Shown: positions 9,308 to 12,446 of the stretch, one piece after another
How positions within the stretch are numbered: position 1 is the first letter of the stretch
Layout: every line of letters begins with the position of its first letter
From: Antrodiella citrinella
Lineage: Eukaryota; Basidiomycota; Agaricomycetes; Polyporales; Steccherinaceae
Assembly: GCA_004802725.1 (NCBI GenBank)
Contig: SGPM01000028.1
Span: forward strand, 62,001-126,000
DNA: 64,000 nucleotides
Reading direction: 5' to 3'
The notes under the pieces: generated by a model
The model's database searches: none
What the model was told of the DNA's origin: nothing
The model's input: only the letters and a program-made list of their open reading frames with translations
Made by a program: the position numbers and the translations under genes

Positions 9308-10306
9308 CTACTGATCCTTCTTCTGCCTATACTCAGCCAACATCTTCCCGTCTAGACGTACCGGCGACTGAATACTCGCAAGGGCCTGAATACCTACCAT
9401 GACGATGGGAAGAAGGACAAAGAATGCGAGGAACAGAGAAAGGATAAGGCCGGGAGAAAGGATCTGGTACCGCTTCAGGATACCTCCAGTAGCGGCGACC
9501 TTGCTTGGTGAAGGAGCGTCTTGTCTGGACATTAAGTTTGCCACCGGGGTATGAGTCGACTGTTGCCAGTCGGAATAGATGACAAGGTGATTGGGGAATG
9601 CGGATGTGAGGCCTTCAAGTTCGTCGGCTAGTTGTTGGCCTAAACGGAGAGTGTATAATGGATGGTTTGCTTCGTGCAAGAAATGACATGGACGTACCAG
9701 TCACTGCCATTTGTGACTTCCTACTGCTCGAGATCTCCAAAGCGGGTACCTGCACATTCACAACAAACTTTCCTCCAGATATCTCCTCCTGGTGCAAAGA
9801 CTTCGCCTCCGCGAGAGAAACCATGCGAGCGACACAACGCTGCGAAATATCGTTGACAATGTAGTCACGGGAGTTGTCGGCGGAGAGCTCTACAAATGGC
9901 AGCTGCACCGACGAAGGAGCTGAACTGAGCATCCTGGTGAAGCTTGATGCTGGGGAGAGTGTACGGAGATCCGAAACATGGAGCTAAATGGGAAGATTTA
10001 TTGAGAGCACAGCGGAGGTAGACAAGCGTATAGACGTACTCCAGGCTGGTTCACCAGAATCACAGCATCAAATTTGCAGGCATCATCACTGAAGACCCAA
10101 CGATTGAAAAAGTCGTCCACTTGCGCGCATGTTGAATGTGTAGGCAACAATTCAGTGCTGCGCCATAGAATGAGTTCGGATGCATGACCTTTGGTCTGGT
10201 AAGGCACATACCTCAATGACGACCATGCGACTAAAGGAGAGGTTGGAGACGCAAAGGCAGCATGAATAAGTGATGCAGCAATCAGCCCTTGTCGAAAGCT
10301 GATCAT
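9308..10306 (-). CDS. big1: BIG1/Voa1/ATP6AP1-like ER membrane protein (V-ATPase assembly, cell-wall glucan)
   Basis: The protein starts with a signal peptide (MISFRQGLIAASLIHAAFAS), followed by a lumenal domain containing WSSLRYVPY, FNRWVFSDDACKFDAVIL and NQPG. Near the C-terminus is a single transmembrane segment in the context KRYQILSPGLILSLFLAFF...GIQALASIQ, ending in a short basic tail with KKDQ. That C-terminal layout is the shared signature of BIG1, Voa1 and the metazoan V-ATPase accessory subunit S1. Yeast Big1 is needed for beta-1,6-glucan synthesis and Voa1 for Vo assembly in the ER. At least three exons are visible, with introns near 10000 and 9650-9690. The start codon lies only 29 nt from the edge of the transposon-like element. 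Confidence 0.82.
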
Positions 10307-10335
10307 GGTGAATGTCGTACAACGATACGAGACTA

Positions 10336-10382
10336 GTCTGGTGGAAGACGCGCCCCCTAGTAGGCATAGCTTTTTTAGTCAC
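10336..10382 (+). repeat. Left terminal inverted repeat
   Basis: It starts GTCTGGTGGAAGACGCGCCC and continues through CTAGTAGGCATA to AGTCAC. Its reverse complement is found at 11694-11740 with a few substitutions and two single-base gaps. The dinucleotide just outside is TA. Confidence 0.85.
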
Positions 10383-10501
10383 GTGTATGAACCAAACATC
10401 GTGTATGCGCGTAAACAAAGACAACGCGTTGTTGCTAGCGCTCATCATTCTCAGGCTGTACCCGCGCGAACGAGCCGAATGTTTCTCTATACCTTTTGTC
10501 C

Positions 10502-10806
10502 ATGCCTGAGGCCATCGGTGGTGCGGCTGCGCCGTTCATATTCAGCTCGACCGATGGCCTCAAACATGTCAAGTCACTCCTTTCCAAACACCTTCCTTAT
10601 GAACCGCATGACTATCAACTCGAGGGGGTCTGCCACTCCTTAGACCGCACAGACCTCCTTGCTCTTCTTCCTACTGGTGCGGGGAAGACAGCCTACTTCT
10701 CTATGTACATGCTCGCGCTTGTCGAGCTCAGCAAGAACCCACCTCCAAGTGACATCCCGCTCAACATACCAGAGGATCCAGCAATGGTTGTAGTGTATCC
10801 AACACA
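10502..10806 (+). pseudogene. RecQ-like DEAD/DEAH helicase, N-terminal fragment
   Basis: From the ATG at 10502 (MPEAIGGAAAPFIF) the frame gives the entry to a superfamily-2 helicase core: HDYQLEGVCHSL (Q-motif region), LLALLPTGAGKTAYF (motif I, Walker A, GAGKT) and MVVVYPT (motif Ia region). After VVYPTQ, similarity to a helicase ends abruptly near 10806; motifs II-VI are absent. The first domain resembles the RecQ-related helicases that are present in many copies in Agaricomycetes. The frame stays open to 10894, but the last ~28 codons read the antisense of the neighbouring gene fragment and are not helicase. Confidence 0.72.
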
Positions 10807-10807
10807 A

Positions 10808-11575
10808 GGTCATGGGAGCCCGATGTTGCAGTATGGATGTAGTCGTACTGACGGTAGAGGACCCAATGTCTGCCCAATCAACGTGGAGACGTGAACCAGG
10901 TCGTGTCGAGAACAGCATTGACCCTTGCAAGCTGTTTCGGGGATCCACCACTTGGCGCATCTCACGTACCATATTTGTTTGCACTAGCTGTACAGCAAAC
11001 GTGGTCAAAGCGGGACGAGCTTGTTTTATTGCATTTACAGGCTTTGTCGTAGAATACATATCTGCTGCCTCATCGGAATTGCGTTTCGCCCGACCATCAT
11101 GATACGGGTGATGTGCGATGAGAGACAAATGAATGGCAAGCGGATATTTGCACTGTCCGCTGAGATAGTGCCACAGAACGCGACGGTGTTTTGAGGAGTA
11201 TGGGATGGGCTGGATGGAATCGTCTTTGTGGTGCAGGAAGTGATAGAGAAACTCGCTGAACGTCCAGCCGAGTATTTCGAGTAGAAGCAGAACCTCTTCA
11301 ACTTTCTGGAGGTCCATGAGTTTCGCTGCAGGTCTGGTTGGTTTGGACGGACTCGAAAGCGCAGAGCGTGGACTGGGTGCAGAGCTAGTTGACAGAGAGG
11401 CGGAAAACATTGGTAGTACATCCGAAACACCAAACTCATGAAGTTGCGCGGCAGTACTACTGCTCGGAGTGGAGGGGTGCCCAGAAATGTTTGAGTGAGG
11501 TGTAACACGGAATGTGGGTTTGACAGTGGATTTGGGCATTTTTGGAGCAATCCATTTGAGTGGTTTGTCCGCCAT
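10808..11575 (-). pseudogene. DUF6589-like protein, N-terminal fragment
   Basis: The ATG at 11575 opens MADKPLKWIAPK. A Ser/Pro-rich linker is followed by KVEEVLLLLEILGWTFSEFL, then HRRVLWHYLSGQ, and the fragment ends with WADIGSSTVSTTTSIL. The opening helix pair and the spacing resemble the N-terminus of a large Agaricomycete family annotated as DUF6589. I recognise this from general pattern only, so the family name is tentative. After RAPMT (about 10808) the frame remains open to 10640, but that part is the antisense of the helicase fragment. The bulk of the expected protein is missing. Confidence 0.55.
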
Positions 11576-11693
11576 CGCTGAGGGACGGTGAAGGTTGTGT
11601 GTCCACGGTCGGTCTGAGTTCACGATCGCATAAATGCTGACCAATTTCACCTTATATAGAAGTCTTCTTCAAAAGGAAATTCTTCCAAACCAG

Positions 11694-11740
11694 GCGACTC
11701 AAAAGTTATGCCTACTAGAGGGGCGCGTCTTTCCGCAGAC
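11694..11740 (-). repeat. Right terminal inverted repeat
   Basis: Read on the minus strand it starts GTCTGCGGAAAGACGCGCCC and continues with CTAGTAGGCATA and GAGTCGC, pairing with 10336-10382. The bases just outside are TATA, supplying the second TA of the presumed target duplication. Confidence 0.85.
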
Positions 11741-11959
11741 TATATACATAATTTTATCGATTGTCATAAAAGTTGTTATAGTTTGCCACGGAGACTAATA
11801 CGAGACAATGAGTCTCAAGGTTGCTGCATTGATCACATATATTTCAGAAATTGGTAACCTTACCAGCAGTCTTGGAAAATAAATAAATAATGTAATATCA
11901 CTGAGGATCAGCCTGCCAATGATGCACTTCACTCTGACCCGCAATTCCTGACCACGAAC

Positions 11960-12446
11960 ATGTCTCAAGCACAAGCCTCCATTCCCTCGCAGCCTCGTGC
12001 AAAACAACTGAGAGCATGCTTGTTATGCTCCATCATCCAAACTCCCGCTGATTTCAGGAAACACGGCTGCCCGAACTGCGAAGAGCTTATGCAGGTGCGC
12101 CACATGCATATTCCTTTCCTTTCTCCATGCTGACTGTGTCATATACGTGCTTCTAGATGAAGGGATATCCTGATCGAATTGGAGCATGTACGACGACGTA
12201 CTTCGATGGCATCATTGCTGTTATAGATCCAGAGACGAGTTGGGTAGCGAGATGGCAAAGAACCTGTGAGCAGTCCTTCATCCGCAATCATCAGTCACAG
12301 TATGACTGACCTCTCTTCGTGTAGCAAAATACGTGCGTGGAATGTACGCTGCCCGTGTTAAGGGCCGCATTCCGGAGGACGTGGAGGCCGAGCTTGAGAG
12401 TAGAGGAATCAAGTACAGACCTCGAGACCAGACTGATATGGATTGA
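11960..12446 (+). CDS. spt4: Transcription elongation factor SPT4
   Basis: The exons are 11960-12094, 12157-12265 and 12325-12446, giving about 121 residues, the usual Spt4 length. The four-Cys zinc site is visible as ACLLCSIIQT and GCPNCEEL. The NGN-binding half contains TYFDGIIAVIDPETSWVARW and KYVRGMYAARVKG, both diagnostic. Spt4 pairs with Spt5 as DSIF, the processivity factor riding on RNA polymerases I and II. The gene is 219 bp beyond the right end of the inserted element. Confidence 0.95.

Follow-up and report, generated by a model that had tools for sequence, protein, structure and literature searches.

What reason certain DNA transposons have for encoding a helicase is, to our knowledge, an open question. 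Kolobok transposons duplicate TTAA at their targets, MULE (Mutator) elements duplicate 9 bp, and the AcademH group is said to go back to a founding paper by Kojima in 2020. Here we describe a 1464-bp mobile element of the polypore fungus Antrodiella citrinella, found in a window of 64,000 nucleotides (contig C201, positions 62001-126000) and compared with the rest of the same genome (30.0 Mb in 602 contigs, to which all C-numbers refer). Very probably it is an AcademH-like cut-and-paste transposon in a non-autonomous form that has lost internal sequence, with the anatomy set out below.

As far as the excerpts of the articles cited in this section extend, AcademH elements encode a helicase and make target duplications of 9 or 10 bp (PMC10045372), and they are of low copy number in Basidiomycota (PMC10799480); in PMC8290104 the name appears in the reference list only. 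KolobokH, reported from fungi alone, encodes a RecQ helicase, and KolobokP leaves behind solo terminal units with duplications of 3-5 bp, which are long direct repeats with inverted ends of their own, 473 and 664 bp in two families (PMC9587614). The Drosophila P element is excised by a 17-nt staggered cut, called atypically long and the same at both ends, and its target sites lie 8 bp apart (PMC7776569). A TET/JBP survey gives duplications of 8 bp for Zisupton and of 2-3 bp for Plavaka (PMC12730594).

Three types of the element are distinguished here, namely the window element (type 1), a 6577-bp relative on C127 (type 2) and the relatives on C241, C68 and C44 (type 3). The label AcademH-like rests on the helicase and the 9-bp duplication set against the published description, and not on the transposase or the ends: a superfamily 2 helicase is present in C127 (Helicase_C at 54.7 bits; DEAD at 19.8 bits, below the Pfam cut-off of 26 bits) and in the window as a fragment only, and the 9-bp duplication is perfect at both, while two type-3 end pairs match only across contigs. 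A preliminary description, made from the window sequence alone, could name no family for the element; now that C127 is seen to carry the same two genes, convergent and within a 9-bp duplication, the combination of a helicase with 9 or 10 bp fits AcademH as described in the excerpt of PMC10045372. With KolobokH the locus shares the RecQ-type helicase and with the KolobokP of the excerpt it shares solo units with duplications, but its duplication is 9 bp instead of a short one, for which reason Kolobok was rejected, and its solos derive from one side only and measure 42-64 bp. What is new here is the end architecture, in which an outer segment of 50-60 bp stands on the side of the DUF6589 gene and none on the helicase side; neither a one-sided outer segment nor solos are mentioned for AcademH in the article excerpts searched, a body of text that does not include the founding paper.

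Boundaries and cargo of the window element

The preliminary description had placed the ends at 10336 and 11740, as inverted copies flanked by TA. The inverted repeat is indeed there, its two arms aligning with one 1-base gap and a score of 57, compared with a best score of 28 for 20000 pairs of 52-base segments drawn at random from the window, and TA can be seen next to GTCTG on both sides. The TA is, however, not the target duplication, and the outermost bases are 10334 and 11797: at its right tip the element has GGAGACTA, which is TAGTCTCC as read on the opposite strand, and beyond it come the nine bases ATACGAGAC, the same nine that precede the left TAGTCT. Because the right flank ends in this way and ATACGAGAC then repeats the left flank, the element is taken to be larger than first reported, and the extra 55 bp on the right (57 bp when the TA common to the inner repeat is counted) belong to the mobile unit (Table 1). 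A Tc1/mariner-type or other TA-duplicating element is excluded by the 9-bp duplication lying outside TAGTCT at both tips.

Table 1. Features of the window element (positions in the window; strand given where assigned).
Feature	Position	Strand	Evidence
Left target site duplication, ATACGAGAC	10325-10333		Perfect, 9 bp; identical to 11798-11806
Whole element, TAGTCTGG...GGAGACTA, 1464 bp	10334-11797		9-bp duplication on both sides; end plan as in the 6577-bp C127 element
Helicase-side terminal inverted repeat, TAGTCTGGTGGAAGACGCGCCCC...	10334-10374	+	88% over 42 positions against the reverse complement of 11701-11742
RecQ-like/DEAD helicase fragment, N-terminal, with LLPTGAGKT	10502-10807	+	Pfam DEAD 20.1 bits (below 26)
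DUF6589-family N-terminal fragment	10802-11575	-	Profile E 2.5e-21; limits approximate
Inner inverted repeat, DUF6589 side, TAGTCTGCGGAAAGACGCGCCCC... on the minus strand	11701-11742	-	Arm alignment
Outer segment of 55 bp, DUF6589 side (minus strand: TAGTCTCCGTGGC...TGTATA)	11743-11797	-	Segment recurs alone elsewhere in the genome
Right target site duplication, ATACGAGAC	11798-11806		Identical to 10325-10333

The cargo had been described earlier as a RecQ-like helicase plus a DUF6589-like piece, an identification that stands, with the reservation that both are only fragments. The helicase fragment is an N-terminal DEAD piece with four relatives in the same genome (33-42% identical), and around its start lies an imperfect inverted repeat of 24 nt (83%, 20-nt loop, 10501-10568). 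On the minus strand an open frame spans 10640-11668, with the first ATG used at 11575; a Pfam scan of this open reading frame (ORF) gave no match at all, but a match to a 931-position DUF6589 profile, built from 35 DUF6589 proteins, covers residues 108-289 of the ORF and positions 11-199 of the profile. Relatives of this fragment are found at C241 and C127. The ORF is therefore the N-terminal part of a DUF6589 protein without the catalytic part. The earlier view of the locus as a DNA transposon that is non-autonomous, has inverted ends and lacks a complete transposase is upheld. The window cargo is a remnant of the element's own mobility genes, and this copy would move, if at all, by means of proteins from its relatives.

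Two further candidates, MULE (Mutator-like), which has the 9-bp duplication in common with the locus, and KDZ/Plavaka, were rejected at the sequence level only, on the ground that a Pfam scan of seven sequences (two homologues, the C30 ORF, and exons of C127 and C461) found no transposase domain of either group; apart from three hits that were weak and unrelated, the only matches were to DUF6589 and to helicase domains.

Larger relatives and a common end plan

A search of the genome with the DUF6589 profile gave 17 matches. The type-2 relative, C127:37345-43921, begins and ends with TAGTCT within the perfect 9-bp duplication CTCTCAATG, and its DUF6589 gene and RecQ-like helicase gene are convergent, one reading in from each end, with the helicase domains scored above lying in minus-strand ORFs. 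On C461, too, the DUF6589 and helicase matches are convergent, with no DUF6589-side end seen. The DUF6589 regions of both C127 and C461 contain in-frame stops, for which introns or damage are possible reasons; additionally, C461:8548-8567, beyond the helicase gene, matches the C127 inner repeat with two mismatches, and the control search also gave one match.

The ends follow one plan in all three types. At the helicase side the tip is TAGTCT, with which the inverted repeat also starts; at the DUF6589 side the GTCTGC of the inner repeat lies behind an outer segment (50 bp in C127, 57 bp in the window, 60 bp in C241 and C68), and in types 2 and 3 no TA stands directly before GTCTGC. The type-3 inner repeat was found at eight ends, seven exact and one with one mismatch, and it adjoins the outer segment at four of them (C68 right, C137, C241 and C573). 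At the other four (C68 left, C44, C12 and C532) it stands without a listed outer segment, the status of C12 and C532, whose surroundings were unread, being taken from the type-3 match list. Three further matches to this repeat with two mismatches were left uncounted, the control having given four.

As assembled, C68 has both type-3 ends, but its two 9-bp flanks differ: the helicase-side flank, GGCTGCCAT, recurs perfectly at the C137 end, and the DUF6589-side flank, ACCCGTTCA, recurs perfectly at the C44 end. We read the ends on C68, C137 and C44 as probably those of two elements split across contigs, a pairing that rests on the flank match itself; for the C241 end no partner flank was found. 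The stretch C68:125411-127151 joins the ends of two type-3 elements, either through an assembly error across repeats or through a real exchange.

Solo outer segments and their possible origin

Outer segments of three sequence types are found by themselves as well. A DNA search with the window element gave, besides the window and its arms, one match, on C190, which continues into the flank beyond the right end as first reported. With up to three mismatches allowed, a 21-base pattern taken from the right tip was found at 13 places including the window, and a 13-base pattern at 21 exact places, with 0 matches in either control. Within its limits the genome search gave no further copy of the type-1 inner repeat beyond 11 bp at C190. 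That the end sequences might occur only here had been named beforehand as a sign against transposition; this is what was found for the inner repeat, the 11 bp at C190 aside, and the opposite was found for the right tip, with its 12 other places.

Altogether 34 outer segments were collected, of which five with an inner repeat (C201, that is, the window, C127, C241, C68 and C137b) were set aside and 29 were counted as solos, C190 with its ~11 bp of inner repeat being kept among them. A 9-bp duplication is perfect at 10 of the 29 and present with at most one mismatch at 14 (type 1, 7/12; type 2, 4/10; type 3, 3/7), leaving 15 with none at that level, whereas wrong pairings, in which each left flank was compared with the right side of every other place, matched in 0 of 812 cases. 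Type-3 solos were predicted from types 1 and 2 before they were searched for, and the search gave 25 places with up to three mismatches (control 0). Eight of the 23 further type-3 places, all exact matches, were read: seven are solos, three of them with a perfect 9-bp duplication, and the eighth, on C137, carries the inner repeat and so is part of a longer element. Among the 15 unread places at least one, C573, has an adjoining inner repeat.

Solo lengths are 42, 43, 47-48, 54, 57-58 and 64 bp, those of 48 and 64 bp being due to extra internal bases, and 13 of the 14 solos with a duplication end in TA. At C190:34077-34145 a type-1 outer segment is followed by the ~11 bp of inner repeat and then by unrelated sequence, with no 9-bp duplication, perhaps the outcome of imprecise excision. 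The type-2 segments at C272:27432 and C336:8902 have the same 14-base left flank bar one base, and they may be copies of one insertion within a larger duplication.

We consider it quite possible, if a little short of probable, that the solos are scars left at excision by a staggered cut of very great length. Of the two strands, the one destined for target joining would be cut at the tip, at the outer TAGTCT, and its complement at the TA that borders the inner repeat on the outside, which lies ~45-58 nt further inward on the DUF6589 side and only ~2 nt inward on the helicase side. The helicase encoded by the element would then separate these strands, the outer segment would be retained by the element that leaves as well as by the donor site, and each departure would leave target, outer segment, TA and target, as in the solos. 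We lean to this reading because the unshortened solos of all three types stop at the TA 0-3 nt outside the inner GTCTGC, because the three shortened solos still end in TA, because resident elements and solo sites alike contain the outer segment, a finding for which a flush cut does not account, and because the element encodes a helicase, which would be needed for the ~50-bp duplex between the two nicks. In the excerpt cited above, the P element offers a precedent for a long staggered cut. Its transposase is also one of the best structural matches to DUF6589; the differences are the stagger proposed here (~45-58 nt against ~2 nt), the 9-bp duplication and the element's own helicase. As an identity for the locus the P element was rejected, its target spacing being 8 bp and that here 9 bp, though a mechanistic likeness may hold.

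The solos might instead be independent non-autonomous transposons of 42-64 bp, moved in trans by a DUF6589 transposase through the TAGTCTCC tip and a degenerate TA end, and it agrees with this that they outnumber the two-ended elements found, that part of them have 9-bp duplications and that unshortened solos of one type share the same end point. We nevertheless think it rather unlikely, since none of the right ends (TTACTA, TATATA and TTAGTA) is the left tip in inverted form, solo lengths vary (apart from those with extra internal bases), and so small a size would leave scant space for transposase binding. Aborted or one-ended insertions, in which the target received the outer tip but the remainder of the element disappeared or failed to be copied, would produce a fixed left tip, a partly variable right end and 9-bp duplications; random abortion should, however, scatter the lengths, and the nearly constant terminal TA of the solos with a duplication, together with the common stopping point of the unshortened solos in all three types, makes such an origin distinctly improbable.

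A nested insertion, finally, would have placed a 57-bp mini-element with a 9-bp duplication first and then a TA-duplicating element (10336-11740, the element of the preliminary description) into its terminal TATATA, and removal of GTCTG...CAGAC with one TA does restore a segment that resembles a solo and has its 9-bp duplication intact. It is nonetheless very hard to credit, given that in each of three types the outer segment lies beyond the inner repeat that matches it, always at the DUF6589 side and at a similar distance (50, 57 or 60 bp), and that two of these types have no TA directly before GTCTGC. A nested TA-duplicating element was dropped, with the outer segment of C127 lying inside its 9-bp duplication and type 3 repeating the plan.

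DUF6589 as a candidate transposase and the site of insertion

The fold predicted for DUF6589 is RNase H-like and resembles DDE transposases in general, with P transposase among the best structural matches. Foldseek gave 109 matches at E <= 10 and none at E <= 0.001, and the DUF6589 profile gave 0 matches to PDB sequences at E <= 1. In the viral contigs searched for DUF6589 relatives, 47 stretches matched the pattern and none was confirmed. Of the 35 listed homologues 33 are named, each name, as far as shown, starting with 'hypothetical protein', and the term 'DUF6589' was absent from the 5.39 million papers covered by our literature text search. The modelled fold suggests that DUF6589 may be a DDE transposase, and it would accordingly be the candidate for cut-and-paste movement. 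Taken jointly, an asymmetric staggered excision of ~45-58 nt, well above the 17 nt of the P element, a helicase for strand separation, scars of 42-64 bp and DUF6589 as the transposase make up a proposal that we advance tentatively and with some doubt. If it is true, the outer segment left at the donor site gives the helicase of the element a job that an excision assay can test, and a function as a DDE transposase can be assigned to DUF6589, a domain that has no name and occurs widely among mushroom-forming fungi. The genome would furthermore keep a readable record of past insertion sites, and annotators would have a short tag by which old ones are marked.

The window element sits between the SPT4 gene (ATG at 11960), in whose product the Spt4 zinc finger was confirmed, and a divergent gene (ATG at 10306), labelled putative BIG1 in the preliminary description, for which the Pfam scan gave no match of note. 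By arithmetic the two start codons are ~180 bp apart once the element and one target copy are removed. The insertion lies ~27 bp from the putative BIG1 ATG, within this short interval between divergent start codons, and it may split a promoter common to SPT4 and putative BIG1.
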